A stretch of 64,000 bases of DNA. Origin: Thuidium tamariscinum. Taxonomy: Eukaryota > Streptophyta > Bryopsida > Hypnales > Thuidiaceae. This document shows, piece after piece, positions 1 to 53,000 of the stretch (position 1 is the first letter of the stretch; each line of letters begins with the position of its first letter). A program made the translations under genes and the position numbers. The DNA lies in the NCBI GenBank assembly GCA_947034885.2, contig OX344749.2:14275501-14339500 (forward strand), read 5' to 3'. Below the pieces are notes generated by a model. The model was not told where the DNA came from and did no database searches. It worked only from the letters and a program-made list of their open reading frames with translations.

Positions 1-906
1 CAAGAACAGCAGAAGTTCGTCCAAGAATGTTTGCGGAACACTGTACAGATTGATCATGTTCATGATAACTACACTAGCTTGTAAGCGATTGATAGGACAA
101 CCTTCGTACAAAGGGTGGGTGGATTCTTGAATTAGCTCCTCCATTTCTACAGCATTGAGGTCACCATCTTCTTCAACCTGGGCTTCCTGGTTCTCCTGTG
201 GAGCCCCTCGGTCTCCGTGCACGTCAACGTGGATGTCATCCGCTCGGGTGAAGGCATCCCGAACCATGTCTTCCACTTCTACTTCGATTCGACGAGGCCA
301 AACGAAACCTGGTTCGTCATTGTCATGCCCTCTCTAGGCATAGGCTTCCTCACCGTCTTCGACATTGTCTACTGGGCCTCTAATATTGAGACCATCAACC
401 GTCTGCGACCAGGTGAACCACGAACACTTTAAGATTGATTCAGTTCCATTGGAGGCATGTTCCTAATCTACATAACTACAGTCGAAGACTACGTCACACA
501 ATCAACATAGTTCAAACTCATGGAGAACGTTGCATTGGAATCAGAACTTGGAGTTCCCTGTGCACTCGAAATCAATTCTCTTTGAAGACTTCCTACACAG
601 AATTCCCAAACTCAATACATCTTGTCTACAAGTATACATAGTACAAATTCATGTCCACATAGATCCAAAAAACAACAAAACTGAGAGAGTTCGGAAGATA
701 TCGTTCAGTGGACAAAAACTCACCATGATTGGGTACAGTAAGTAAGGATCACGACCATGCAACTTGTGGTGCCTTGCTACTAATGCTGTGGTGCGGATTC
801 GCCCTCCCTGGCACTGTCTGCATGCACAAGGGTACTCCGGAAGACCCTGTCTGAAAGCTATAGCCCTTTCGATGTGGTACACTGAACCCAACCGCCGAGG
901 CCTCAT
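1..906 (-). CDS. Tnp2-type CACTA transposase, N-terminal part, runs off left edge
   Basis: Two exons can be read on the minus strand. Exon 906-724 encodes 61 residues starting MRPRRLGSVYHIERAIAF; it has a Cys cluster EYPCACRQCQGG followed by a His-rich HHKLHGRDPYL, like the small N-terminal zinc motif of plant Tnp2 transposases. It ends at a good donor (ATG|GTGAGT). Exon 333-1 starts after an AG acceptor in the same phase. It contains acidic spacers, the sequence EVEDMVRDAF, and then LIQESTHPLYEGCPINRLQ, the conserved Tnp2 entry motif (family form: x-PLYEGC-x). It continues open through base 1, so the catalytic DDE part lies outside. An in-frame TAA just before the Met at 906 supports that start, although a non-coding or short upstream exon cannot be excluded. 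The protein would act in the nucleus to cut and move CACTA elements. Confidence 0.75.
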
Positions 907-3900
907 TCTTTATCAGAAAATAGACACTCCTTGAGTCCCCCTGGTCTCCTAGACACCGGAAAATGAAATGTAGTGCGTACGGCAAAAAAGAATTCCTAAT
1001 CCTGAAGTCAGAATGCAATGGCGTTATACGAAATTGAATTTGAAGGCTACCAGAGTGGGTGGAGGCCAGTGAATTGCCGATTTCCTTGTTGAAGAAACGT
1101 CATTTGCCCTTGTCAGTTACATTAAAACTCTTCCTCTAGTATGCTTGTATTCAAGTAAATCAGGTCTTTCCTGCAAGAACAGTAGAAACAACGTTAGTGT
1201 TGCAAACTGGATAAATGACAAAGTTGAAATTAGTGTGTCAGTGTTAATCCAATCCATCAGACTACATGGTGAATCACAGAACATCACCCGCTTGGACTTT
1301 ACTTCGTCCAGAGGACACCCAAAAATCGGAGAATCCAAGCTCATAGAAATCTTCTAGAAACACCAACTGAAATCCTCCCTTTCAGAATGACATGCACTTC
1401 ACATATTCTTGAATTTAACTTCGAATTCCATAATCATGCGCATTGAGTCCTCAGTTTCATACAGCATATACATATATGCATATAATATATACATAATCAA
1501 ACCTTTTTTACTATACCCGTCTCAAAGTCAGACTAGCCTAACTGCAATATAAGGGACACGGGGTCCTTGGACTGAGAAATGGTCATTGCAACATGTTCAT
1601 TTGCACACCTCCCTGACATTCACGAGGACACTATAATGTAATATACCAAATAGGAAAGAATGCTCTACTTCTCTTGCAGACCAACTGCAACGTCTCTTGT
1701 CAAAATCAATGTAACGAGAAAAACCTATTTGTATAGAAATTGCATCCAAGAAGTTTCGGCACACTATATATGGTTTCTCAATATATAGAGGAGATGTGTA
1801 CCACAAGTCTCATACAAACAGATTTACCAAAAAAACGCATGCACAACTTTAAATAAACGAACTCCTATTACAACACTCATTCAATCTACACAAACTGCAG
1901 CAATGAATGAGAACTTGGGTTTAGGGTCTTCGACATACTAAGAGTGATCGTGAACTGACTAAGCAAAGGCAGTTCTGTGTCTACTTCTTTTGCAGAAGTT
2001 TTATTAGAGAAATTTTTCTTTTCCCGAAAGAAGCAGGCAATTCGTCGGGGTAGTTCTGAATGTCGGTTGGTATTATGTTCGAGGGAACAGGGCATGCTAT
2101 TTCATTTTTTTCGAAAAAAGATAGGTCCTCTTCAAAGAGTTCTCGGATTATTGGTCTCAAACCTACTTTCCTTCTACATTTTCGGATGGGTTCTATCTTC
2201 ATGTGATTTTTAACCTCGGGAAGCAGGTATGAATTGGTTCTAACCACATCACCGACCTCCTACACATAGTTAACAGAACTTCCTGATGACCCTATGGTGC
2301 TCTCATGTGTAACATGTGCACTCTCGTAGGCTTTAGTATATTTCTCCAAGATTGACAAGGAAAAATGCACTTGGCCCTCAAACTCCTCGGTGTCAAAATC
2401 TGATTCCCATTGAGGTTCTTTCCAAGGCATCGATTCATCTCCATATGTTGTAGGCCCTCTAAGTCATTGCTACTGGTTCTACTCCTCTTCCCCATTAGTA
2501 TGGCGTTCGAATTGCCCGCTTCTGACATACTGTACCAAATACTCACTTAGCATACTCGTAGAGATTTAGTTTTGGCAGAAAAAGGACAGAAAAAAAAGCG
2601 AATTAAAAATTCCGTGTACTGCTTCTACGTTGACATATGACCAACAACTACTGACATCATTGCACAGTATATGAGTACTAGGACCTAAAAAAGGCTTAAT
2701 GAGGAAGAAAAAATTCCTTAAATGTATAGAAGAGGCAAGGGAATAGTAAGGAGCTTCTTCTAGGAAGAAGGTCCTCCAAAATTGACTGTTTCGATTTCAG
2801 GGGCAACGGCCACTCACAGAACGTGACGAACAGACCTCACGTTTTCGAAAAGAGTCGAAGGCATTGCCACGGGAAATGGATAGCAAGACTGCCGCGTGAA
2901 TTCATTCACGATGAGTTCACGGACATCAGGAATGAATGAATTCACTGCACTTAGGAAGGGCTCAAAAATAATTCTTCCACAATTTTCATGTCCTACCGTT
3001 TCTTTCTTGTCAGGGTACCGAAAAGAAAGGCCCCTAAGTTTCATCAATTATACTAGTTCTCTGCACTACAAAAAAAGAATTCAGAATGTTTTTAAGAAAA
3101 GTATGAAGAACATTACTTCTCCAGAACCCTTGAAGGCAAAATCCTGATGTATGCATAAGGGCAATTAGAGGAATACATTCACAAAGACCCTATTCCATGA
3201 ACTACTGATAAAAGAATTTTGCAATTGCCCCGAAGCTCCTTCGAAGTGACAGTGAAGTACTAGTATAAACCTAGGGAGGATACGGCCATACCTTGGAGGC
3301 CGTTGAAATTTATGACGTCAACTTCAAGGCAGGTCTCCTGTAGCACTCCTACTCGGGTCTTCGGGACGAAGATACTTGGGATTGCGTGTTGTTGATATGC
3401 AGAATTTCCTCCCCATGACTCATCTACACAGGCATGTACACATATTCTGCAGTCAGAATAGAAATTACGACCTCTTCCGTTTGCCCTGAAGTCCTCAATC
3501 CAAATAACACGCTCGTAATTTAGGAATGACGATTTAGGACTATTGTGTACAGGAACAAAGAGCACGCAGACTTTAACAATACAGGAGGGAACAACACAAC
3601 TTTGTCTTTAGTGGTGCATTCGGAAGGTCAGTTTCCTGTGAAATGAAATGATTAGGGGTAGGCGGAGCTTCTATCTGTGCACATTGATTGTCTGGAACTC
3701 AAGTTTACGGTGGTGCCCCAGTGCAGTGTCATTTCAACATGAAAATCTATGATGGAGGTGCCTTCCAGAAGTAACTCCTCCGTGTGTATTCAAAAAGCAA
3801 ACATGTCTTCTCTCATTAATGTGGGTGGCTTCTCTCACACACTGCCCATTTTCATAACACCCCTCAATCGACCTGATGTAATTCACCACTTCCAATCCCT

Positions 3901-3986
3901 ATATGCTGGGCGAAAGAGAGAAGGACACATGAAGCGGAAGGAAAGTAGAAGAAGAAAGTGTTACCTGATAGCGTACTATAGAGACC
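907..3986. other. Spacer between the divergent CACTA genes, with exon-like segments on the minus strand
   Basis: No gene can be named here. On the minus strand several open stretches look protein-like and end at plausible splice sites. One is about 3571-3265 (includes the Cys-rich CRICVHACVDESWGG, donor CAAG|GTATGG). Another is 3047-2820 (includes DVRELIVNEFTRQSCYPFPV, donor TCT|GTGAGT). Others lie at about 2470-2285 (includes DFDTEEFEGQVHFSLSIL) and at 2250-1981 (includes LRPIIRELFEEDLSFFEKNE). They could be upstream exons of the Tnp2 gene or a third, unidentified gene. The phases were not all reconciled, so no gene model is proposed. The region just left of 3987 would hold the promoter of the plus-strand gene. 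Confidence 0.3.
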
Positions 3987-6900
3987 ATGGCTGAAGACGA
4001 TGAGGCCACTGGAAGATTACTGATGGAAGAGATTGACGCCCTCCTTTCGAACATCGGAATGACACACGCACAGTGAGTACACAATCGGAATAGTCTTCGA
4101 AGTTGATCCCGAAGCCTACCGCAGATCTTGGGCGGCGTGGCGGCTTGTAGTCAACAACTAAAATGGGGACCTTCGCTTTGCATTGAATGACCATGGCTGC
4201 GCGTACTGAGAGTTTGCTATTCCAACATTCTAGTTCCGTAGTATAAGGATGCACCAAATGTACTTCACTAAGTTGTCACTGTTTTCGGCGCGATCTAAAA
4301 TAGGTTGGAGAAATGCGGTGACGTAGGACATGTAAGTCAAGCTTGAAGTATAATTAGAATGCGGCGAGGTAAAAAGAAGCGGAGGGATTTGTGACAGAAG
4401 AAGCGAGAAGGCACAACAATCGAGGAAGTCCAGAAATTTAGGTTTCGTGGCAACCTCTCTTGGATGGAAAGGAGCGGATGAACGGACGAAGTAGGGCACT
4501 GTTTGAAAGGGGCAATGCATGTGGATGCAGATTTCATAGCGCTCATAACTTTGTCAGTCCGAGTGCATGCCGAGCTCCTTTGATCTGCATTCACTAGATC
4601 ATTGTGGTAGTAGAATTATGGATCTGTTTTTTGGATTGTGGAGTTGCTCCTTTCCTTCTTAGGGGTGTTCTGTTCCATTTGCTGGAGACGCAGTGCTATT
4701 GACGGTGGGACATTAGAGGCACTGGTGAAGTGTATTTGTTTTCCGCCTCCTTAGCGATTTACGTTTAAGCACTTAATGAACATGTAGTGGTGACTCCCAC
4801 TAGATTTTTGAGAATGTGTTGTTCTGCAAAGATAACGTTCAATGTCTTAGGGTTCTCGTCTTCTCGATGGCATGGTAAGAGCTTGCTTGTGTTTATGAAA
4901 CTTGCAGTGTTAACTTGGACGACGGAACCTGCTTTCTGACAACAGAAATTAGGAAGAAAGCAACATCCAACCCAAATCAGCTCGCTCAAGACAGCTACGC
5001 TGTTTGTGTGGGCGGATGCAGTGTCTCCAATTCCACTGAGGAGGACGTCAGAGGATGCAAGTCGGAGATTGAAGGTATTGTATCTCCTGGCAAAGTAGAG
5101 TTTTTGACTTCGAAATTGAAGGCCAGCCAAGGTTGATTGACGGTCGAGGCTGGTTTGAATTTGTCGCTCTCAAGAGCATCGATTTCAGCTTTACAAATAT
5201 TGTGATACGTGAAACAAATTTGTAGATGTGTCTGCAGTATTTCGAAGTGAAGGAATTAAACATCCGAGGAGCATCGTCTGTACAACCCAGAAAGCGCAAA
5301 GAACTGAACGAATCCATTGCATAGAAGAAGCCTCCAGCGACATTTCTGTAGGGTCAGAACATGACCCGTGTTGGCAACCGACTTCCGAGTGTGTGGTGCG
5401 TGACAAACCGTTTACCACGGTGGGTGGAAGACGTGTAACTAGGGCTGCTCTGAAGAATACTGTGCACTTGCTCCCAGCACGGGGACATCACGAAAAGGTG
5501 AAATACGTGAATATTCACCTCATACCGCAAACAACTCGAGTTCCACCCTACTCCTGTTTGTGGTTCAAATCACGTCCGTATCATGTAGCTGACATAATAC
5601 TGGAATCTGCAAGTCCCTATTTGAATCCGGCATTTCTGTATGAGGGAAGTGGACTATAATTTTTTCAGATCTGTGAATTGGAGTAGTCGATTTCAATAAT
5701 GCTGAACGGAATGCTCTTCAAATATTAAAAATGCGTGCAGACGTAGAGTTCTGCCTTTCTGAAGAACGAATCAACAATACACATGTTTGCATAGGAGTAC
5801 AGTAAGGTTGAGGTCAATGGAATTCGAGGTTCCTGTTTAAGCCTGCAGTTCGTAACTGCGAGGTGTGACGTGAGGAAGTACAGGGACGTAGGTGAAGGGT
5901 ATATACATTTATGAGGTCGTTGGTTGACAGACTGTTTTTCAAAGGTGTTATAACTATGTGCTCATGACATTCACTCCAATGTTTGTGTTCTTGTTGTAAC
6001 ACAGAGTAAGAGTGCACGGTGTGAAGCCTAGTGTTCGGCACTAAACGGAACATTGAAGGTGAAGGTAATGTATTTCTGTTCTTGCCATTTTTTAAAATTC
6101 ATGGAGTGAAGTGTAAGAAGAGTACACAATGTAGTGTAGTCTTAGAACCGAATGCATGTTTTTATATATTTTTTTATTATTAACCTCCAAATCTTCATAC
6201 GTAAAGTGTCATAAGGGAATCCGGTACTCATAGAAGAGGTCGGTACAGATCAAGAGGGAAGAGTCCTGTGAAATGATGTGCAGCCACCGCATAGGACTTG
6301 TTCATTCCACAGTTGGAACGCAAATATCTGATTAGCGTACAAGATGGTCACGTTTTCTGAAGAGGGCAGAGCATGGGTATTTCTGAGTACTTAAAATTCT
6401 GACTTTTAATTAAGAGCACCCTGAAGTACATGTCATGCCTGTGAGTCGCTGTGAACTTGTGCTCCAAGAAATAAACTGAAGTGTACGTGTATCTAGTTGT
6501 CGTTACACTCTTTTCACCTTGTGCCTTGAACTGGCAAATGTTAATGTGTTTCTTTTCTTGAAGAGCAGAAGATTTCGTTGGGAATGGGTAAGCAGAAGGA
6601 GTCCTTTGAAGAGTGGAGCAAGCCACAAACTAGAGGAAGGCCCGGTACTAGGGCAAATCCTGAGGAGGACATCCACAATGAAGATAACAACAGTGGATTG
6701 AAAGAGAAGTTCAAGACACCTGTGAATGAGACTCCTCAAGCGAGGGGAATGAAGAAAACGGTAGGGTCAACTGGCGGCGGTGGAAATTCTGATGCAGGTG
6801 GTGAAAGGCGTAGTACAAATGTGGAGGTTGGTATCCGTAAAAAAGGTAGGCAGTTGGAAGGTGCCTTGGAAATTGGTGGAGGACCTAGTACTGGATGTCC

Positions 6901-9361
6901 AATGGAGTCGGGAAATGTTTATGAAGCACTTCCGGTAAGGACTTCGAAGGATGACTCACTAGCGGAATTAGATGTCGATAAAGTCTCAGGGGATGCTACT
7001 CAAGAATTACCGGGCGGAAGAGGTATGTTGAACCTCTACCCTACAGATGGAATTGCAAGACACGGAATCGTTGTGGAGATATAGGGCCGAATTGTTTGAC
7101 GATGTCACAGAATGTTCCTTGAATACTTGTATTCACCTCTGGTTCAGATCTTGACATTTCTCACGTACAGTGTGGACATCTTCTGATTACTAACAAGTGT
7201 CTCAATGATTTCAGAGAAGGGTAGTCCACAATACCGGAATGAAAAAAAGCACGGAAGAACCAGAAGACATGACACAATTACTCATCGTATGCAAGGGGAG
7301 ATGAGTACTAGGTCCTCTCCTCAACAACAGAAGAAGATGAAGTCTATAGAGCTCAGTGGAGACTCCAGTGAGCATTCGTACTCCAAAAGTGACCGTGGCA
7401 AACAGCGCAAATCATTGAATTGTGATAGTTACAGCTCCCATTCCCTAGAGGTGAGAGCATACCTTTTTTTAATTCTTGTCACTTGATAGAGTCCATGTAG
7501 TATAAGTTGGGAACAAGAAGTGAATGTGTTTTAGAGAATTGGTGGATGTTTTAAAAGTCTTGTGAATTTGGACAGTAAAGTAGGGGAGAGTGTGGTTGTA
7601 GAAAGTAGTTTTTCATGTAGTTTTCATCGAACGTGTCGTCATCCCTGTGATAGAGGTATCGGAGAGGAAAACGTCCACGGCATTATCGTAGAAGGCGGAG
7701 GAGCTCTAGTGTATCTGAAGAAGAGGAATATCGCAGAGGACGCAATGTTGGTCGCCAACAGAGAAGGCATGAAAGACATGACCAAGATTACAGAAGGGAT
7801 GAAGCTGAGTGCAGTAAGCACGTAAGACGACATAGGTCAAGAAGATCAGACTCTGAAGAGGAGTATGCAGACCAACACCACCGAAAAGAACAAATTGTGC
7901 AAAGGGACTCAGAAGAGGAGCTGCGAAGCCTCTCAAGGAAAGAAGAATTGTCGGTCAAGGTAGAAAATAATATTGGCAATGACGAGACAGCGAAGCGCAA
8001 AGGTCGGCGACATAGGCAGAAAGAAAGGGAAGACAGAAGAAGGCAAAGAGAAAGTCAAGGCCTCAAAGGACACTACATAGCAGTAGATGAACATGGAGAG
8101 CCTTATTCATACGGGGTTAGCGCATGGAGGCTGCAATTGAATAAGTTGTGTGCATCGCTTGACCCTTCTGTAATGGACATTCGTTGGCAACCGGAGGAGT
8201 CTATGAAGCTACTAAGAAAGAGACTGAAGGAAAACTTGAATACAGCGCACCAATATCTCGGGCGTACATCCGATCTCTTGCTGGAAGGAATGTGATGCAA
8301 CGTCGCAATAAAATCATGAACTCTATGCGTGCGGATGCTCCTCGTTCGGCTGGAATGGATGCCAATATTTGGCGGAGATTAGACAGAATCAGGCAAAATC
8401 CAAGACGAGAGGAACTTTCTCAGTGAATGAAGTATGCGACTCCTGTAGAATCAATGTTGGGCGAACTGGTCCGAAAGGCTTGAGTGGAGTATGTGATGAT
8501 TTGCGTGAGAAGTTGGGTAGAGAAGCTGATCCAAATGAGGTTCAGGAAGATCTGCGTAGAAACAAAGGTTATGGTGGTCAGAAGCAAAAAAAAATTACTG
8601 GCGTCGAAGGTGTCATCAGAATCGGAGACAGAAGAGGAGGCATTTGAATCCGGAGGAGAGCCAGTGAAGAATGTCGAGGAGCGAAGACAACTGAAGTGGA
8701 GTACTGAGGAGGGGCCGACAGGTGATGGAACTGAACCGCCAGCACATGACGAATACATAAAGTCCTTGGAGAAAGAAATAGAGGAATTGAGAGCGAAGAA
8801 AAAAGTAGTGGAAAAGGTATGGGGATGTAGTAACTTTGGAACAGCGGACCGTATTGGAAGTCGTCCGAGTAGCATCAAACAGGGAGAGGGAGCAAAAGAG
8901 AGTACGAAGGAGGCAGAGGTAAGTTGAATTGTATTGGGGAATGTGTAGTATTCTATAGAGTGTCATGAATTACTACGAAGAAGCACCATATTGTCAATCC
9001 TGTGTTTATTAAATCCTGTTCCAGATTCATAGAGGAATTGTGGAGGGAGTGGTGTGTTTATGTGTAAATTCTATTTAAGTAGGTAGTGATTTTATGAAGA
9101 GCGTTCAGTGCATCAATGGGAATTTGGTGAACTGCATGTGAATGCGGGAGTATGTTTTTTTCTGTTAAATCTTTAGAATGTGAACACTGCGAATTGCTTT
9201 GTTTAGCACCCAACAGTGGAGTTATATTGTGGTTGACTGATTTGGGCATGTAGGTTGCAGGATTGTTAAGCGGAGAGGATTCTGAAGGGACTTCGGAAGG
9301 TACTGCATTACCAAATGTGGGATTTCCGGAGACGAGGAAGCGAAGCAGACGGAAATGGTGA
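3987..9361 (+). CDS. RS-rich TnpA-like protein of the CACTA element, seven exons
   Basis: Exons traced by phase: 3987-4072, 4908-5074, 5226-5497, 6569-7022, 7215-7450, 7654-8918, 9254-9361. Donors are mostly strong (GTGAGT, GTATGT, GTGAGA, GTAAGT). The start ATG has a Kozak-like context (gaccATGG). The protein begins MAEDDEATGRLLMEEIDALL. Exon 6 starts with an SR/RE-rich tract (RRRRRSSSVSEEEE and many RR, DR, SEEE steps), then a compact domain with YSYGVSAWRLQLNKLCASL and further on RAYIRSLAGRNVMQRRNKIM and PRSAGMDANIWRRLDRI. The latter resembles the 'RNKANR...G...W..L' core of the plant transposase_24 (Ptta/En/Spm) family; this is a judgement by eye. A coiled-coil-like EYIKSLEKEIEELRAKKK follows, and the last exon ends in KRSRRKW. 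Within exon 6 the protein-like frame changes about three times between 8230 and 8590, the last change at a run of nine A. The copy is therefore either decayed or mis-sequenced. Expected role: a DNA-binding accessory protein for transposition. Confidence 0.6.
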
Positions 9362-10980
9362 AGTGGACAGGTATGTGTTTTGTGTGAATTAGTAGATGAT
9401 TGCAACGTATAATGAGGTAAAAATAAAATCATAAATGACAGAGATATTAGTAAGAAAAGAAGTATGGCAGTGTTTTGCAGAAATTATAGGACGTAGGGGC
9501 ATTAGAGGTATAAAGTTCTAGTAATGGAGTTGGGTGTTTTGGGCAGAGAACCACCAAAAGAATATGGTATGTTTGAGGAAGGCATTGACAAGTGTTGCAT
9601 GGTCCAAGAGTCCATGAATTAGTGGAAAGAACAATTTATGTACAGTTACAGTCGAAATGGGAAGAAACCTGTGCTATATTGGTACACTTTCTTATAGTAT
9701 ATTTCTTCAATTAATAGCATGTGCTAAGTGAATGAGGACTTAGAGAAGGAGATATTCTAATTCTCATAAGTCAGGGAAATAAAATCTCATGAACCAATGT
9801 TCATAAGTAAGCCGTGCCAGGGAGTTCATGAAGGTAGTGCCTGAAACTTATCTTGTCCTTCAGGGTTGATGTGTATGAGAATCTAACATGAGAATTCCAA
9901 TTACTTTGATGTTTGGCGATTAAAATGTTGGTCTGTGGGTGGACTGCAATTAGTGAAAGTGACATGGGAGGTTTGTTGTTATATCAGGTGTAGGCATGAG
10001 GAGTTACATGATGCGTTAAAGTGAGAAGAACAGCCAAGGAAGTCCAAGACGTACACAGAAGTGAAGGTTATGAGTACGTGTAAGTGGAATCTGAGGAGCT
10101 GGACTATGAATCTATGGATGTGATAGTGGTGAGCTTTTAAAGAATAAGGGGAACAGTTCAGAACCAGCATTTCGGCCAGAAGTTGTTGGATTTGATTTTG
10201 TTTTTCTATTCAGAATAGGTATTGTGTGAAATCCAAGTTTTCTATGAGCATAGGTCGTAGCAGCATTGCTGGAAGTTAAAGGTGATGATGAACTGTTTCA
10301 GAAATGATCGCCTTGTAAGTGTGTGTTGGAAACTATATTTTGAATTTCAGAAGTCCAATATGTGAATTGGCATTCATGGGATTAGCAGAGCTTTGGAAAT
10401 GTTTTGTGGTTGAAAATGTTCACATTTCCTGGAGTGGTGTACGGTAATGTTACTCAAGAAAAGCATGAAATGTACTGATTACAAATTGAATAGGGGGGAT
10501 TGAATCTTGGATAAAAGATGCTGCAAAAATGGAATCGGAAAATTGAATTGGAATTTGGTTGCAAAAAAAGCAGATATTCCTAGAAGCCGTAGGTCCTATT
10601 TTAATCGAACAGTGAAGGCCTTCAATAAGTGGGCAGCCGTGATTACTATAGGGAGCCTTAAATAAAAAAATCACCCCGAATAGGCATTCGCTATTTGTCA
10701 GAATTTAGCGAAAGCAAATGTATAATTTAAGAGAAGAGGGTAGTCATGAACCACCTGCCTCATGTTTATTGGCTCATGTCACACAGCTGGAATGACGTGG
10801 ACTGTGTACACAGAATGCCAAATACAGTAAAATACGAATAAAATGCAAGGACTTTCATTTTTAGGAAGCCTCCGAAAGGTACCAACCGGCTAGTCAGCAA
10901 TGTTTAGTCTTTTGTGGAAAAGGTTCCCATTTAGCAGTATGTGGTAAAACTGAATCCATTTTTATCAAATTACATGATCT
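9362..10980. other. Non-coding 3' part of the CACTA element
   Basis: I see no exon with convincing codon structure or splice sites here. The sequence has moderate AT content and many stops in all frames. It lies between the stop codon of the TnpA-like gene and the subterminal repeat cluster, as expected for the trailer and sub-end of the transposon. Confidence 0.5.
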
Positions 10981-11150
10981 CCACGGTGGCAGTACACCGT
11001 GGACATTGATTTCGGGAGCTAAGAATGACGTGGCATGGAACAACAGAAGTCAGTTAAAAGTGACCGAATCTAGTGGTCCTAATCAACTGACCACCGTAGT
11101 AGATATGTGTTGAAAAGCTGTTAAGGAGGACGGTGGTTCTTCTAGTAGTG
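10981..11150. repeat. CACTA right end: subterminal repeats and terminal inverted repeat
   Basis: The short motif ACGGTGG occurs repeatedly in both directions. A perfect 8-bp inverted pair CCACGGTG / CACCGTGG (10981-10988 and 10995-11002) is separated by 6 bases; CCACCGT is at 11091 and CGGTGG at 11131. The outermost 20 bases on the minus strand are a typical CACTA terminus. Flanking TAT at 11151-11153 is a candidate 3-bp target duplication. Confidence 0.7.
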
Positions 11151-11173
11151 TATGCAATGTCTAAATTTTTGTA

Positions 11174-14100
11174 TTAACCCTAGAGTGTCCGAGGGGTGAA
11201 AATGTCACCTCTCAATTTTGAAAAATGTCCTTATTTGACAGTTATAAACTTGTCAATGGTACAATCAAAAGGGTGCATCCCTTTCTATGTACCTCTGGGA
11301 ATGGTAAGTTAGTGTGGATCATTTTTTAGGTGATAGTTTAGTTCAAATGAGTATAAAAAGGTTTGGATTTCATTGATCTTGGGTGGGTACTCATGGGCTC
11401 AATGTTTTCTTGCATCTATTCAAAGTTCTTTAAAATGTACTTTCAATCAAAGAAATTTCAAGCTCTAATTATAAATCAATCAAAAGCTAAAAGCTCATTC
11501 AAGAAGGACAATATGATTGGTTGGATTGAAAATGCTATAAAGGCATGATGAATGACTCCAAGACTAATTGGACTTTAGTCAAATTATTATTGTATGCACT
11601 AGTAGGGCAAATGATTGCAACCCTCAATGCTTGAACTAATAATAATATTTTCATTGCAAAATGATCATGATAAATAATTGTAATTCCTAAATGTCAAAGT
11701 CATATTTTGAGAACAAAAGTCAAAGGTATTCAATCACTTAAATGGATATCCATTTTTTAAAGCATTATTCTATATTTAATTGAAATTTAATTAGCTTGAT
11801 TTGAATATAATCTAATTTTGTAGGTACACCATTAGCAAAGTCATATATAAAAATTAGGATGAAAATCAAGATGATTGCAAGAAAGAGGTGTGCTTTTCTG
11901 CATCACACTAGGAATAACAAAGTTGTCATCTATTGTATCCTTATTTTTGAAAAATTTTAGAAATCATTTTGTAATTAAATTTAAATGTAGCTAATCTATC
12001 ACACTGTACAATTTAGGATTTTTTACTATTGAGGAGTATCCAAAATTAATGATCTAAAGCTGAAATTTTTGTAGTCTATTTCTACACTAGATAGACATGT
12101 ACCTACCAAAAGAAATTTGCAAAAACATTATTTTATAGCTTGCTAATAGGGCTCCCTTGTGCACTTACTTCTGAACATTCAAGATGGTTTTAAGATTATT
12201 ATTTTGGTGAAATCTCTTCATCCTAAAGTTTTTTCAAAATGCTTGTTTCATAAGAGGTTTTTTTGGGATATTGAGAGATTGTTTTAGCCTTGTTCCCCAT
12301 TCTGTGAACCAGCCACTACTGGTCAGAATTAAAAAATATTAAAAAAATATTAAAAAAATGAAAAAATGAAAAAAATGAAAAAAAAATATATATATATATT
12401 TTGATTTAATAAAATATTATTATCTAGATGTAGCAGTCTCTGTGCCACATTAGATTAGCTGTTGGGACAGTTTTCAGCGAGTTCCCACAGTCTGGGAACT
12501 CGCAGTCTCCCAACATGGTAAGAAAACCTCTTATGCTAGTTTTTTAGAATTTTTTTTATTTTCTTTGAAAAAATTTTGTTCCTATTTTCTACAAATTAAA
12601 ATGTCAAAGTTTCTATTTTTTCTTAAAACCCAATTACTTTATTTTGGGAATAACTTTGATCTACATTTTTTTTAAGTCTCAAATTTTGGTGACATGCAGC
12701 TTCTAGTATTGTACTAATTATGTATGTTTTGTCTTATTTCATCTTTTTCTTTCTTTCTAAAAGGTCATAGTATAGCTAGTAAAGAGCCAAACACTACAAA
12801 AATGGTCTTGGCCTTTGATGCAATGATTCATCATTGATTATTTAGTATAATAATAATTGCTTGATTGTTCTTTTAGAAGCCATTTTTTGCTTTTGCAATT
12901 CTACAACATTCCTATTCAACCTTAGAAGGTCAAAATTGTGACATTCAAAACCACCTCACCCTACCTCAAATCAATGCACATTTTCAACCAAGTTTTCAAC
13001 CCTATACTTTTGAAATTCATAGTTTCAACTAGAAAGCTTTTTTTTTTTCTATTATTGTAGCCAAGCCTTCTATTGAAGAATAAAAATCTTTATTGTTGAT
13101 TCTAACATTCCAACTCTTAACCATTTCATGATTAAAATGAGATTTTGCATTTGTGGCCAAGTTTCTATGGATGCAATTTTTATTATTCTTTTTTTCTAAA
13201 TTTTTATACAAAGTGGTATATATTTCAAGCTCTCTAGTAAGTCAATTTACAAGAAAAACAAATTTATATCATTTTAAATTTTTCTAAACTTTTGGATAGC
13301 TAAAAAATCATTTCTTAAAATTAAAATAATAATTCTTGAGAAGAATGGATATGTATTTAAAACATAAAATTTATTCATTATGTTTTGATCAATGGTGTAA
13401 AATTTGTGAGGAGATTGTTTGCAAGAAATTGTAGAATTTATTGGAAAAAAAACAAGTATTGTTCATGTTTAACTCTATTGTCACAATTCTTGAAAACTTA
13501 GAAAAACATTTAGTTTAGATGGCTTACAACAACATTTATCCTAGTGAGATTGGCATGGTTGAAGTCTCTATAAGATTTATTAGCAATTTAGTTTTCAAAA
13601 TGATCTTGCTCATCTAATTACATAATGATTCCTCTAAAGGACATATATCAAGTTTTATATTATTGATTTTTTTCTTTAAATTTTCTCAAAATTTTCAAAG
13701 TTAAACCTTCTTTACAATAAAGTATTGAAAAATGCTTGTTGTCCTACTTTGACATTATGATATTGGAGGCACTTAGGAAATAGTCTTTGAAATTGGTATG
13801 TGTAGAAATATATATACAAGTTTGGTGCAAAATCATAGTTAAAAATTGCAAAAGATATTTACAAATTTATCTACTCTACTACTTGTTTTCAAATTGTATT
13901 GTCTTGCAACAATTTTGCTCCAAAATACCAAAAATATAATAGCAATTAACCCATATATGCTTGAGAGGCCACAAATGGTCTATAGTTGAATTTTAACTCT
14001 TCAAGGAGATGTAGAAGAATAATTTTCCATCCAAACTTTATATTTATAGGGACTTATATGAATGCTTTAGCAAGAAGATGCCTTCTCAAATATTCTCTTT

Positions 14101-22493: not shown

Positions 22494-24727
22494 TCAGTAT
22501 CGTGCATCCCAGAAAGTGAAATCAGGGGAGCAGTTCAGCCCAAGCGCAGGGGTGATGTAATTGCCATTCAGAAATTCTGTAGCCACAGCCTTGTTAAACG
22601 TATTAGAAGTGTGGATACCGTCCCAGCTCAAGTGCCCAGCTGGATTAGCACAATAACTGTTTGTCAAGTTTACAAACTGAAGGCCAACAACTCCTGCGTT
22701 GCCACAGGTCACCTTCGAATTAAAGTTGTAGTACCCCCCCGCTCCACAGCACGCCTTCAAAGGCTCAGTAACATCTGTGAATATGATGAATTAGAAAACC
22801 AATTCATTAGTACAAAAAAGGCATTCAAATCACAGTTATAGGCATCATTCTTCTCAAATCTTGACACAATCGCCATACTCTCTCAACAATGGCAAAGCTT
22901 CAAGAAATTGGCGTCACGAGACCTAGTTTTTAGAGCTTTGGCATTCGAGTGTCACAATTTTGGCTCTCTAAAACACGCCAGAAATATTCAAATCAAGAAG
23001 ACGGTCTAGGATTGGAACTAAAAAAAGAACATTAGTTAATTACAGGGCATGATCGACTTACTGTAACTCCGGGGGTCTGTGAGTATGTTGATGTAGACGC
23101 TGTGGAGGTCGCCGTAGTAGAGGTTGACGTCAGGAAACTTGGCCCTCAGTTCGATCACAGATTCCTCGAGGACGGCGTTGTGATTGCTTGTGATTCTGTT
23201 GATTTCCTTGTAACAGCCTCGACTGTCATAGCTATCGGGGGAGTTGTCGGGAAACAAGGTGAGCAAGGCAGGAATGCATCCCAGTGGCGGCAGATTTATC
23301 ACCAGCAGGTCACGTCCCCCAAATGCCACAATCCCCTGCAAATCAAAACAGAGGAACATTCGGCAACATAAACAATGAATTTTAATCGGAAGGGGCCGCT
23401 TTAGACTCGACCCAATTGATCCCAGTGCAAAACTTGCGCTCAGAATGGAGCTTGAAAGCCCAAGAATGGGTTTAGCTTCTGAAAGTTGGGTCTCGGTACG
23501 TCCAGGTCAAGAACACCTGACGCAATGCCTCTTTTGGTTTAGTGCTTTTTTCTTGCACTTGCAAGATGGAGAGTTTTTCTCCTTTAGGGTTGGCGTGGGA
23601 AAATCATTGAAGAATTAAGAAGACTGTCTCCAGGTTCTCACCTCAATAAGATCAGCAATGGCTTGCACCACGGGGTCCACGAGCTGCAGCGTTTCTTGAG
23701 GAGTCAGAGCGGAGTCGTAGAGGCTGAAGAAGTAATCTTGGTAGCCAGCGTATACAACATATAAGGATGAATTCAGTGTTGCGATTGTGGGCAGGCTCTG
23801 CACAACAACTACGGACCCCACCCAAGAGACAATATCCCACCAAAACGGAAATCAATTATCAACAAAATAATGTCACAAAATCAAAGAGTCCAGAGGCTGA
23901 ACTTAGATACACAAGGAATAGATAACGTTTGTGAAAGTAGACTTAGCATCTTACTAAGTATAACATGCCGAGCTGCCACGGGAGTAGTAACTCAAGGGAT
24001 GTTATTTCAAATTGAATGCTTTCACATTCTTGTACAAAACACTCTTTTGTTGGATCTTGCATCAATCAAATGCTCAGGACACCGTAACTTCAAATTAAAG
24101 AGAGATATTAATTACGAGCATAAGTTAGTTATAAACACGGTCTGTCTTCATATCCAATGCATACTGCATTTTATCCAAGGAGGTCATAAGGATTCAACAA
24201 TGAAGCACAAGTGAAGAATCAATCGACTTACTGACGGGGTCTTGGTTTTCATAAAAGGAGAGACGCACTTTGAATCGCACCAGCCACTCCAGTTGCACAT
24301 CCAGAGAGAACGGTGTGTGGAATCCCGAGTCTCTTGTCCACCCAGTGCTGGGCCTGGCTGTGGCCCCCGAAGCCGCGAAGCTGACGCCGTATGTGAAATC
24401 CGCGCTGGTGCCTCGTAAGATGGGATAGATGGGGCGCCGCCGAACGCCGAACGCCAAGAAGTCCACCAGCAATTTGCCGTCGCAGTACCGATCCGCCGGG
24501 TGCGTGGGGAACAAGTTACCGTTGGGAGACAGCTCCGCGTTCGCAAACTGCGACGGAAAGGCCGCAATGCTGTTGCCCACGTCCGACAAGGAGTCGCCGA
24601 AGGAGTACACGGCGGGGTACGAGCAGTTTCGCAGCGCTGCCGAAATTGGGAGAATGCAACAGCTGAAAATCTGGAGCATCCACAGCACTGACGCAATTCT
24701 TCCCCTCACGCTTGCTTCCATAGTCAT
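22494..24727 (-). CDS. Secreted GDSL esterase/lipase, four exons
   Basis: Exons on the minus strand: 24727-24236, 23797-23642, 23335-23062, 22774-22494. Phases join exactly to 400 aa, normal for plant GDSL hydrolases. A signal peptide (about residues 10-31) is followed by the nucleophile block YSFGDSLSDVGN (Ser46). Next come block II GVSFAASGATA, DPSLPTIATLNSSLYVV, the block III region AGYQDYFF, NLPPLGCIPALLT, the ...C-CGAGGYYNFN Cys-rich turn, and the Asp-His pair in LSWDGIHTSN (Asp359, His362). Block III normally reads GxND; here the Asn is Gln (GYQD). The enzyme should hydrolyse esters in the secretory path or cell wall; the substrate cannot be told from sequence. The first intron donor is taken as GTCAGT because it keeps phase with exon 2 (acceptor TTGTTGTGCAG). 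A relic of a second copy lies downstream. Confidence 0.92.
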
Positions 24728-24922
24728 CTTCGACTCTTTGGTATTATTGAAACAGTGAAGAAAAACTCAAGGATTCAGAGTCACAGATCCAGTAATCTCT
24801 CTATGTTAGACTCGACTTGCAGGGATGATAATTACTACAAGAGAATAGATTTGTGACCTCTCAACTTGTCAGTGGTGTTCGATCAATCGTCAGTGCGTGA
24901 TGACTAGTTTCGGGCCCTGGAG

Positions 24923-47232: not shown

Positions 47233-48273
47233 TTATTGGATTGCGAGCAAGGATTCCAAGCTATCCGGCATGAACTTTCTAGCAAACAAGTAACAAACAT
47301 GCCCGGGCTTCCCATTGTACACACACCCCTCGTCCCCTCGAATGCGCTTGTAAAACTCCACGGCATCCTCTTTCCCGAACTCCCCCGGATGCGAGCCTCC
47401 TTTAGTCCAATCCACTGCCGTCACACTCCGCATAGCCACTAACTTCCTGAACTCGATCCACAACATAGTCGGAATGTAATGCTCATCCACATAACAAATG
47501 GGCTGACAAAACTGCCGAAACTTCGGATAGTACTTCACGTCCGCCACGACGTACGTCGCAAGCTCACGAGAAACTTCGAACCACTGCGCGCCTTTGCGCC
47601 ACTGCTCGATCGCGACCTCGGGCAACATGCGCGCATCGTAGCGGCCTCTTCCCACGGGAGAAGGATCATCAAACACACCAACAAAGCTTTGAACCGACTT
47701 CAGGAGGTAGCGGTACGTGAACGTGAAGTTGCGCAAGGGCGCGCACGATTCCGAAAGCAAGATGAAGCGGGCGTTGTCGGGGTCGAGAAGCGCGTTCGCT
47801 AACAGGCGTCGCTCGGCGTCGCACATAGAAATCTCCCCCCATATCGTCGGCTGGCTGGCGACATGGCGATGGAAGAAGACTGAAGAGGAAGGGAAATCGG
47901 GCACGTAACCTGGAAGCGAATGGATGTAGATGCTGTACTGATTCCGATGCGCATTTTGGAAATAGGCCTCCCAGAGAGGCGCCAGAGGCAACGGCCCCAC
48001 GGTGAGAAACATGAAGGCGACTTTTGGGGTGCGGGAGACGGGCAGGGTCGCCCTACGTAGAAGCTCCGCGTCGTCCATAGCCAGACCGTGCTGAATTAGG
48101 GTTTCACCAAGGTTGGGTTTGAGGTGCACCCCAGTCGTGATCCGCATGTAGCTCAACATTTGGAGCGTCGCCACGACTCCCAGAAGCACTCCGGCGGCCA
48201 GTGTGAGGAGCGTTCGTCCCACTCGAATCCCCGATCCATGGTGATGTCTGCCTGCTACCGCAACTTCCAGCAT
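47233..48273 (-). CDS. Core-2/I-branching glycosyltransferase (GT14, BC10-like), intronless
   Basis: A 346-aa type II Golgi membrane protein: a short basic cytosolic tail, one anchor (about residues 21-43, LLTLAAGVLLGVVATLQMLS), a stem, then the full plant GT14 domain. Conserved blocks are KVAFMFLTVGPLPLAPLWE, YSIYIHSLPGY, ISMCDAERRLLANALLD, FILLSESCAPL, DDPSPVGRGRYDARM, QWRKGAQWFEVSRELA, CYVDEHYIPTML, VDWTKGGSHPGEFG and CYLFARKF. Family members transfer sugar in the Golgi and, as with rice BC10, affect wall polymers or arabinogalactan proteins. The exact donor and acceptor are unknown. Many plant homologues have introns; here the whole frame is a single exon with no sign of decay, which could reflect intron loss. 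The start Met at 48273 directly precedes the basic tail. Confidence 0.92.
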   Translation of the reverse strand: MLEVAVAGRHHHGSGIRVGRTLLTLAAGVLLGVVATLQMLSYMRITTGVHLKPNLGETLIQHGLAMDDAELLRRATLPVSRTPKVAFMFLTVGPLPLAPLWEAYFQNAHRNQYSIYIHSLPGYVPDFPSSSVFFHRHVASQPTIWGEISMCDAERRLLANALLDPDNARFILLSESCAPLRNFTFTYRYLLKSVQSFVGVFDDPSPVGRGRYDARMLPEVAIEQWRKGAQWFEVSRELATYVVADVKYYPKFRQFCQPICYVDEHYIPTMLWIEFRKLVAMRSVTAVDWTKGGSHPGEFGKEDAVEFYKRIRGDEGCVYNGKPGHVCYLFARKFMPDSLESLLAIQ

Positions 48274-49344
48274 TTCTGAAACCTAATTCTAGCGATCTTT
48301 GCCTTCAGTACGGCATCGGGCGCTGGCCTCCACGACTCAAAGCAAATTCGTAAACCAGCACTTGCACGGTGGTGAACATCGCCGCTCGATAGCTAACTAG
48401 TACTTCAAACCAGATGGAAAATTGAATGTTTCCCGTCGATCAGAACTTCTCCATAGCCAGGTCTCGCACCACTCCGAGCGACGATTCGATTGACAACCCA
48501 ATCTAAAATCGACTGCAAGCTTCAATTCAAATTGCCATGAGTCAGAATGCTAATCGAACACCTCGCAAACCCTTCATCTGCCGGCACGCCATGTCCCAGC
48601 TCCTTCGTTCAACGCTTGCCCTTCAACCATCCCCTGTACGAAAACAAAGACTGCTTCCGGAGCGCACCTGCCAGAGGGAATTGTAGAGATCCCAAGACGA
48701 GTACCTTATGAATGATCCTAATCACGATCTCTATCGAAAGATTGGTCGTACTCTGCACATGTGGGGAGAAGTCAACAGAAGTCGCCGCGCTTTGAACACG
48801 GAATACCGACAATTGTAATAGTTTGCTTGAACATGCATGGTACCGACTCGGGGCGCAAGGATCGATCTCGTGGTGCATCCGTTTTAAGCAACCCGTTCCA
48901 GGGATCTAGGCGAATAATCAATGCATGCATTCGCAGTTTGGCACAAACAGGCGTCCACTCTACGACACAAGTTACTTCGAAGGAAATTTTTTGTCTCACA
49001 TGGAATCTCCAACTGTGGTAGGGTGTGCATCTAGAGTGGCAAGCTTCGAAACTCTCACGCTTTGAGCCTACACCCTTGGAAGAAGGAGCACGAGGAGAGC
49101 CATACTTGAAGCTTGATGATTCGAAACTCATTACTGGCCTCCAATTTCTGACAAAAGAGGAAGAGCAGTGGCTGTAACTGGGAATGAGTACAACCACTCC
49201 ACTTAATTCAATTATTGTGCCTCGCAATAACAGCTTGCACTGATTTCAAAATTGTTAGAATTCGATTGGTGTAATAATATGATATAGTTCATTATATATT
49301 GAAGATGAAATTACTATAGAAGCTTACGACCCACTTCCAGCCAC
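48274..49344. other. Upstream region of the glycosyltransferase gene
   Basis: It should contain the leader and promoter of the minus-strand gene at 47233-48273. No additional gene is supported on either strand; no clear TATA box was noticed. Confidence 0.4.
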
Positions 49345-50030: not shown

Positions 50031-53000
50031 AACATGAATCAATAACCTTGTGCACCTCCCACTCCACATCTCTAGTAGGGATAATAATCGGTGGAGGTGG
50101 TATACAGCAATGTCTGGGAATGGTGTCTCCACGATATTTTTCAAGTAAACAAATATAGAAAACGTTGTGAATGCATGATGTCTTAGGTAGTTTCAGCTGA
50201 TAAACAAGATCCAAGGGTTTAGCTTTTACTAGAAAGGGTCTAAGAAACTTAGAAGCTAATTTATGAGATGGCTATGTAGTTGCAATATTTTCATTGCGAA
50301 GGAGGACTTTGTCACCTACTTGAAAGGTCGGTTGTAGTTGTACTCCTCGATTGTAGTTTCACTTAGCTTGTTCCCCTACATTCATAATCATAGTCTTGAG
50401 TTCCTCATAAACTTGTTGTAGATGTCGAACCCAGTCTGCCGTTGCTGGAACAGTGGATGTTGTAGGTGTAGAAAACGATAATGCCAGATGGTAACCATAA
50501 GTTGTATAGAATGGAGAAAATCCTGTTGCAGAGTGGCATGCGTTGTTGTAGGTGAACTGTGCTACTAGTAAGAGATCAACCCAATTGTCTTGACGTTTTG
50601 TGATAAACATTCAAAGAAATTGTTCAACTACTTAGTTCACCCTCTCCATTTGTCCATCCCCTTGCAGATGAAAAGTCGTCGTTAGTGAAGGCCGGATCTT
50701 GAGAAGTTCATATAGTCTATGCATAAACTTTGACACAAAAATCAAGCCCTTATCTAATATAACCTCATCTAGCATGCCATGAATCCGTGATATTTCCATA
50801 CATTGTTCAAATATAAAGATGCAGTCTCATTAGAGCCAATGGTCTCCTTTGTAGGGACAAAATGAGCTAGTTTATTATTTTTATCAACAACCACTAGGAT
50901 AGAATCATACCCTTTGCTTTGGGGTAGTTTGAAAATGAAGTCACTAGAAACGCATTTCCTTGGAGCATGAGTAGCTAGAATTAGTTGCAGTACGCCATAT
51001 TGAGGATGATGTGTCGCTTTTGACCTTTAGCACAAATCGCACCCATCAACATATCAATGAACATAACGATGAATAGTTGGCCAATAAAAGATTTTGGTTA
51101 CCAAATCTAAAGTTTCAGCCCAACCTTGATGTCCTATAGCACGGGCGTCATGCCTCAATTGCAAGATTTGTCGCCGAAGTTTGTTGTCGTTTGGTAGTTG
51201 GTACATATAACATATCTTTGAACCAAAGAATTCCATCAGTAAAGGTATATTCTTGAAACTGACAACAAATGTCACACGGGTTTATTTTTAATCCCCCTTT
51301 TAAAAATTCCAGCATTGGTTGCAATGTGGGGTCTTCATCAATGGATAATTTTATTTGTTCCAAAATATGGGCATCACTCCAAATGGATTCACAATCCTTC
51401 AATGTTGCCAAACGCAAAAGGGATTAATTTTCTTCAATTCAGCCTTCTATGACATCAACTCTTCTTGAGGGGCATCTGTACGGCCATTTAATGAACCAAG
51501 CCAATGCTGGATGTCAAAATCGAAAGTTGATAAAATTTTTGACCACCAAGCCTGTCGTCTATTTAATTGTTTGGTTGTAAAACAATACTCCAAATTTTTG
51601 TGATCCAAAATTACATGGACTTGATGTGGTGACCCTTCTAAGTACACACGCCAATCCTGAAAAGCTAGAATGATGCTTAGAAGTTCTTTGTCATAGATGT
51701 CGTAATTCTGCTCCGCTAGAGACGTTTTAGAACTCTTATATGCACACGGATGTAAGTGACTGTCATCCCCATGCTCCAAAAAAATTGCACTTGTTGCCAT
51801 ATCCAATGCATCCATTTCAACTATAAAGGGCTGTGTGAAGTCAGGGTGGAGCAGTACCGGTGCTTGAAGAAATTTGGATCGGAGGTCCCTAAATGCTTGA
51901 TCTACTTATAAGTTCCATTCAAACGGTTTGTTTTTTGCCAGGTCAAAATAGTGAGAGGAACGGTGATTTTAGAATAATCAAATATGAACTGACGATAAAA
52001 ATTTGCAAATCCAAGGAAAGCTTGAATTATCTTCGTAATGAATGTTGGAATGGGCCAATCTTTTATAGTTTGCATCTTGTATGGGTACATTTCAAATCTC
52101 TTAGCCAAGACAATCATTCCCAAAAATTCTACAAACTGTTGATGGAATTGGCATTTGGATTCCTTTGCATATAGCCCATGTTCTTGTAATCTTTGTAACA
52201 CATCTCTCACCACTTGCCGATGCTCTTCAAGGTTCTTTGAAAAAATTAAGATGTCATCTAAATATATAACCACTGATATGTCCAAAAGATCATTAAATAT
52301 ATCTTGCATTAAAGATTGGAATTGAGTCGGGGCATTAGTCAACCCAAATGGCATAACTAAATATTCAAATAACTCGTACCGCGTTTTGAAAGCTGTTTTA
52401 AATTCATGGCCCGCAGCCATACAAAGTCGATGACAGGCTTGCCGAATGTCCAATTTAGTGAAAATTGTAGCCCCTACTAACCGGTCCGTGAGTTCTAGAA
52501 TAAGAAGCAGGGGATAATGGTTATGCACGGTAACTTTATTAAGATTCCAGTAATCCACACAAACCTGAATTGAGCCGTCTTTTTTCCGAGCGAATACAAT
52601 CGGTGTTGAAATGGAAGACTTGGATCTTTGAATCCTTTGCCCAAAATTTCATCTAAGTATCTTCGAAGTTCCTCCAATTCTACCAGGGACATTGGTCGCA
52701 ACCTAGTGTTATGGGGCTCTTGTCCTTATTTAAATTCAATCTTCATGTTGCAAGCACCATGGGCTAACAACTCATTTGATGCTACCTCACTAAAAGCTTC
52801 TTTTAAATCATAATATTCTTTTGGGATGGAGGTAGAGGAGGATAATGGGGTATCAACTTCAGAAATCTCGATAGCATAAATTTCTACTTCCTTTGCCAAA
52901 AGACGAAAGGTTGCCGCTAACACCAATGCATGCTTTGGAGCAATTAATTTTGGAATTTTTTTTCCTTCATTGAAATTCAAAATATTTTGTCCTTGATCCA

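Follow-up and report, generated by a model that had tools for sequence, protein, structure and literature searches.

Divergently oriented transposase and TnpA-like genes in a CACTA transposon clade of the moss Thuidium tamariscinum

Two CACTA-type genes lying head to head in the genome of the moss Thuidium tamariscinum raise the question of whether they belong to a single transposon, and if so whether their opposed orientation is an accident of one locus or a general arrangement. En/Spm, a member of the CACTA superfamily, combines a Transposase_21 transposase (TnpD) with a second protein (TnpA) and generates a 3-bp target-site duplication. The locus lies in a stretch of 64,000 nucleotides on contig OX344749.2 (here C1; C8 and similar labels also denote contigs), C1:14275501-14339500, within an assembly of 363 Mb and 19 contigs. 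For a chlorophyll a/b-binding protein encoded in this assembly, the top PDB matches after two multi-domain chains of 9vfj are 8htu and 7xqp, both Physcomitrium entries, which suits a moss host. We refer to this whole stretch as the window and give positions in the stretch to its left, L003, as negative numbers (L003:4886 being window -5114). An earlier note, made from the letters of the window, had described positions 1-11150 as an autonomous-type CACTA transposon with a Tnp2-type gene on the minus strand, a TnpA-like gene on the plus strand and a CACTA end at 11150. Here we present, with high confidence, a CACTA (EnSpm) DNA transposon of 16,265 bp, from -5114 to 11150, belonging to a clade in which a Tnp2 gene and a Transposase_24-like TnpA gene diverge from an internal region of about 3.5-4.2 kb.

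Both ends of the element and its target-site duplication were observed directly. The right terminus, TTCTAGTAGTG, ends at 11150 where the earlier note had placed it and is followed by TAT; on the minus strand of 11135-11150 it reads CACTACTAGAAGAACC and matches a left end, found by the leftward extension that the note had proposed, at which CACTACTAGAA starts at -5114 (L003:4886, C1:14270386) directly after TAT. The 11 bp of CACTACTAGAA form a perfect inverted repeat at the two ends and start with CACTA, and the TAT on both sides (11151-11153 on the right, L003:4883-4885 on the left) is a 3-bp target-site duplication, two features that define the superfamily. Allowing up to four mismatches, the 16-bp terminus has no copy in window 1-11134, so no left terminus separates the genes and both are parts of one element; further left, the Tnp2 region contains two four-mismatch copies (-3128 and -1911). 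Two other candidate ends were set aside: one at -9215 (2 of 16 mismatches) is flanked by AGT, not TAT, and lies outside the -5114 end; the second, C6:6482887, is the one further place where the 16-bp end recurs exactly, and it was left unused because its surroundings lack similarity to the element ends by blastn.

The minus-strand gene encodes a Tnp2 transposase. Its frames in the left flank match Transposase_21 (PF02992) at E 8e-56, DUF4218 at E 8.8e-31 and DUF4216 at E 2.6e-07, all above the curated Pfam cut-offs, and this combination places the gene in the CACTA/EnSpm group. The DUF4216 exon (-4128 to -3487, frame L003:5869-6588) and the DUF4218 exon (-2762 to -1848, frame L003:7235-8179) lie outside the window, and the Transposase_21 frame (L003:9134-9874) belongs to an exon region that continues into window 1-402 on the same strand. 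The DDE-containing part that the earlier note expected further left is indeed there: the DDE exon begins in window 1-333 and runs leftward to -1067. Upstream of it, an N-terminal exon at 715-909 (minus strand) carries EYPCACRQC and is 65% identical over 65 amino acids to its counterpart in a relative on C8, and the furthest upstream of the Tnp2 exons shared with C8 lies in an open frame at 2260-2463 (minus strand; EEFEGQVHFSL, 2338-2415), with a likely start codon at 2430-2428. The PLYEGC and Cys/His (EYPCAC..C) motifs by which the earlier note had recognized Tnp2 are real and common to C8. Its impression of an unusual N-terminus agrees, in a comparison made without angiosperm proteins, with the lack of any Pfam match, including to the transposase-associated domain, in scans of the two N-terminal exons (649-909 at E up to 1, 2260-2463 at E up to 0.01). 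A PDB sequence search returned nothing at E<=1 for either Tnp2 or the TnpA-like protein.

The plus-strand gene is, by sequence comparison, a strongly diverged Transposase_24-like (TnpA-type) gene, resembling that family without being a member of it. Its first conserved exon region, MGKQKESFEEWSKP.., runs from an ATG at 6584 to the end of the open frame at 7084, and its MGK start is common to C8 and to a relative on C5. The main exon region (7654-8927) holds an Arg/Ser-rich stretch, the Transposase_24-like domain and a coiled-coil-like end, and is broken over the frames 7654-8295, 8163-8426, 8312-8647 and 8484-8927; a probable last exon, placed by inference at 9254-9363, ends in the basic RKRSRRKW and a stop, and the C8 gene has a similar basic end. 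Plus-strand frames at 3989-5659 were rejected as 5' exons, their best counterpart being a 41-amino-acid match to C5 (E 0.049), with nothing convincing in C8 or C5. That a gene exists here, as the earlier note had claimed, is borne out by the 149 genome matches of exon 7654-8295, itself included, among the best 150 of 248 candidates (148 loci after a second piece of the C11:6215613 locus was merged). The Arg/Ser-rich stretch is common to eight relatives, as is a domain in which 41 columns are invariant; the longer ones, C8 and the window copy itself also have a segment resembling EYIRSLEKKIEEL that by eye looks like a coiled coil. For three of the eight, Transposase_24 (PF03004) was the top family among the 24,736 in Pfam (E 6.1e-4, 2.7e-3 and 0.078), and each of these matches starts at profile position 1.

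Is the opposed orientation of these genes peculiar to this locus? The right end has five homologs elsewhere in the genome, of which the one on C4 does not start with CACTA. A second complete element, C8:12226026-12241093, is 15,068 bp long and flanked by AAA at either end. Its Tnp2 exons are collinear with the window element's, and the TnpA domain occupies the same place on the opposite strand; its TnpA gene is open through the conserved domain, with the coiled-coil-like part in another frame (a frameshift or an intron). Among 118 Tnp2 loci (the best of 653 candidates in a search with the C8 protein, listed as 119 until a second piece of the C2:41980000 locus was removed), 91 have one of the 148 listed TnpA loci within 20 kb, and 89 of these 91 pairs are divergent, with one same-strand and one convergent pair. 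The proportion is 50/51 within 10 kb and 93/96 within 30 kb, whereas random placement (500 trials, uniform over approximate contig sizes) yielded on average 2.4 pairs and never more than 8. An independent Tnp2 list from the family search (best 150 of 627 candidates, with the window's own Tnp2 added by hand and no rows merged) gave 48 divergent pairs out of 49 within 20 kb. The head-to-head order that the earlier note had stressed is therefore general in this genome. Furthermore, the 89 divergent pairs show a correlation between the ranks of their two genes by similarity to the respective query (rho 0.645, p 9e-12), so the two were inherited together.

These counts also bear on the suggestion that two separate or nested elements merely adjoin here and that their order is accidental. 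In a genome this rich in CACTA elements, with 627 Transposase_21 candidates at first look, such neighbours are to be expected, and they may account for the two non-divergent pairs; however, a single pair of termini with TAT encloses both genes with none between them, and the layout recurs in C8 and in nearly all listed pairs. Chance adjacency is thus very improbable for the window element and is refuted as far as the data go.

Several observations weigh against the reading of a coherent divergent clade with a TnpA-type second gene, and they concern the window copy, its relatives and the name given to the plus-strand protein. In the window copy, three in-frame stops (334-336, -125 and -866) interrupt the main Tnp2 exon where the C8 exon has none, and the TnpA domain is broken up among three reading frames and also has a stop. 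The label "autonomous" in the earlier note, which would call for both genes to be open, is therefore not supported for this copy: because both genes are broken, it is not autonomous today. The promoters and transcripts discussed below are predicted from the strands of the genes. Among the relatives, the AAA flanks of the C8 element sit in A-rich sequence and make a weak duplication, a relative at C1:3.87 Mb showed no second end in the 10 kb examined, and, besides the two non-divergent pairs within 20 kb, 27 of the 118 listed Tnp2 loci have no TnpA match within that distance, for which truncation, divergence or the limited match list may be the cause. In a further relative, C5:27952584-27978899, the right end is homologous and a TnpA exon is present, and the nearest listed Tnp2 (85% identical to C8) lies 22 kb off on the same strand; a rearrangement or the presence of a second element may explain this exception.

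With respect to the plus-strand protein, all Transposase_24 matches fall under the curated cut-off (best 20.4 versus 28.7 bits), two of the three matching relatives are closely related to each other, and the profile has no match in the genome at E<=0.001. Hence, of the two family searches that the earlier note had suggested, the one for PF02992 succeeded and the one for PF03004 did not, and we use the name "Transposase_24-like" on account of these sub-threshold matches and the empty genome-wide search. Together with the fact that the window copy's own TnpA-like exons match no Pfam family, the low scores of the relatives would suit a different origin, namely a captured host gene carried along by the CACTA clade; gene capture by CACTA elements is known, in one case in opposite orientation, from the available part of a study of grapevine (PMC2528002). 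Set against this are the first rank of Transposase_24 in three of eight relatives, each time from the first profile position, the 41 invariant columns of the domain, and the co-occurrence and co-variation of the gene with Tnp2 over 89 pairs, so that we regard a captured gene as unlikely and retain the TnpA-type assignment.

Although the window copy is broken, comparisons with its relatives show that the encoded proteins have been constrained. When the window copy is compared with C8, three Tnp2 exon regions differ at proportions of 0.71-0.80 for synonymous and 0.13-0.19 for nonsynonymous sites. Across 21 pairs among seven of the eight TnpA relatives (the shortest, L032, was omitted), the corresponding ranges are 0.30-0.90 versus 0.02-0.30 in the domain and, more loosely, 0.23-0.93 versus 0.13-0.63 in the N-terminal part. 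A misregistered value for C8 against C5 was discarded. These proportions indicate that the Tnp2 and TnpA-like proteins are both under purifying selection across deep divergence, and the window element is a decayed member of a clade once maintained by selection. As a separate observation on decay, stops inside the 150 listed Tnp2 matches comprised 34 TAG, 8 TGA and 2 TAA (counted by eye), and loci L009, L011 and L013 each have TAG at the position of a Gln in relatives, a pattern expected if CAG had changed to TAG at methylated CHG sites; the three Tnp2 stops of the window copy deviate from it.

The region between the divergent genes (2431-6583) presumably holds both promoters. Measured from the TnpA-like ATG at 6584 to the likely Tnp2 start at 2430, it spans about 4.2 kb, compared with about 3.5 kb in C8; the earlier estimate of about 3 kb has to be revised, since the first exons conserved in C8 and C5 give the larger figure. 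The ACGGTGG motif, which the earlier note had described as a subterminal repeat, is enriched in the window (9 copies versus 2.6 expected, a number reached in none of 100 shuffles). Three copies lie between the genes (3707, 4702 and 5417), three within 168 bp of the right end (10983-11136; at 10983 and 11130 on the plus strand and 11091 on the minus strand) and the remaining three outside the element, with an additional copy at -2385. As a subterminal repeat of the family it had to be rejected: it occurs three times at the element's right end, nowhere at its own left end, nowhere in the whole C8 element, and in only two of eight element ends. CAACAGA is present in one to three copies in each of the eight ends examined, six of which are mutually homologous. 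We suggest that ACGGTGG could be a predicted TnpA binding site common to the end and the middle region of the window element.

By analogy with En/Spm, Tnp2 would cut at the CACTA ends, the TnpA-like protein would bind repeats near the ends and draw them together, and the element would move by cut and paste, the window copy only with proteins from other copies. Since the genes lie on opposite strands, their proteins could not be spliced from one sense transcript as in En/Spm, and two promoters, possibly forming one bidirectional region, would be needed. We therefore put forward, tentatively and at slightly less than even confidence, that this is an old and successful CACTA clade in which TnpA has become uncoupled from Tnp2 through divergent genes with separate promoters, and in which the copies of ACGGTGG found in the middle and near the right end may be TnpA sites by which the element regulates both promoters.

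How far does this arrangement depart from known CACTA elements? The window element resembles maize En/Spm in its CACTA ends, its Transposase_21 transposase with a second protein and its 3-bp duplication, but differs in organization: in En/Spm both proteins come from one sense transcription unit, whereas here the genes occupy opposite strands, as in the other listed divergent pairs. According to the accessible portion of one account, most of Spm forms one transcription unit from which alternative splicing yields tnpA to tnpD (PMC1636069). Tgmt* of soybean (20.5 kb) and Tam1 of snapdragon (17 kb) are likewise large CACTA elements with a Tnp2-type transposase and a diverged DNA-binding second protein, but produce mosaic transcripts spliced from the same gene, as far as the available text describes them (PMC2613891). 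The tnpD-tnpA pairs linked to LsC1 in lettuce also place Transposase_21 and Transposase_24 genes side by side; in the accessible sections of that report, contiguous tnpD-tnpA transcripts were detected and, after Masson et al. 1991, said to be required (PMC8195511), whereas a divergent pair could not give rise to such a transcript. Jozin of Chenopodium shares Transposase_21, DUF4218 and DUF4216 in its first open reading frame (ORF1) and, in some copies, Transposase_24 in ORF2, but at 8.3-10.1 kb it is smaller, has ORF2 within one aggregated coding sequence, and carries the transposase-associated domain that was not detected here (PMC8978399, available part).

It may nevertheless be that CACTA elements ordinarily carry Tnp2 and Transposase_24-type genes in divergent order and that this has been reported or annotated elsewhere before. 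Our literature check covered open-licence papers, mostly as partial text, with subscription papers and repeat databases outside its scope, and in soybean TgmR* the relative direction of ORF1 (920-7481) and ORF2 (9347-12255) is unstated in the portion available (PMC4219821). The En/Spm, Tam1, Tgmt* and lettuce accounts, as far as accessible, all point instead to one transcription unit or contiguous tnpD-tnpA transcripts, and no description of a divergent case or clade was found in the open-licence papers covered. A prior description elsewhere is thus quite possible, and we consider an ordinary layout a serious, if less probable, alternative to that of an apparently new gene layout, within the known CACTA kind and relative to the literature covered.

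Additional elements and genes were noticed in the course of this analysis. A second, distinct Tnp2 clade (C11:6859176 in L006, C11:6989702, C11:635451 and others) has open exons of 482 amino acids and scores highest of all listed genome matches to Transposase_21. Considered as a same-strand control, it was uninformative: the single locus C11:6859176 has no TnpA relative within 9.9 kb on each side, and the neighbouring same-strand frame of 786 amino acids is a member of a high-copy DUF7869 family (L043:2871-5228, C11:6863871-6866228). Among the best 57 of 969 candidates scored, this family has many open frames of 957-989 amino acids with more than 80% identity, especially on C11, and three of these 57 copies have a listed Tnp2 within 20 kb; from these sequences the family looks like an active, uncharacterized mobile element. 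Elsewhere in the window, a plus-strand open frame of 978 amino acids (58503-61439), in which a phosphatase-like PTP-NADK domain is fused to an NAD kinase, is likely a chloroplast NAD kinase gene, and the minus strand carries a Core-2/I-branching glycosyltransferase-like gene (47233-48282), a GDSL lipase exon (24194-24766) and a piece of a retrotransposon reverse transcriptase (51902-52648).

Together, these findings bear on how CACTA elements coordinate their two proteins. If the clade is active, a contiguous tnpD-tnpA transcript would not be required for CACTA transposition in general, and an active divergent member would contradict that requirement as a general rule. Classic CACTA elements set the proportion of TnpA, the regulator, to TnpD, the transposase, by splicing of one transcript, and a divergent clade would need other means of setting it. 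The clade also adds another conserved family of transposon proteins, one whose connection to Transposase_24 is hardly visible to profile searches, and its 89 listed divergent pairs in one genome constitute a natural test of the role of shared transcription in CACTA transposition and silencing.

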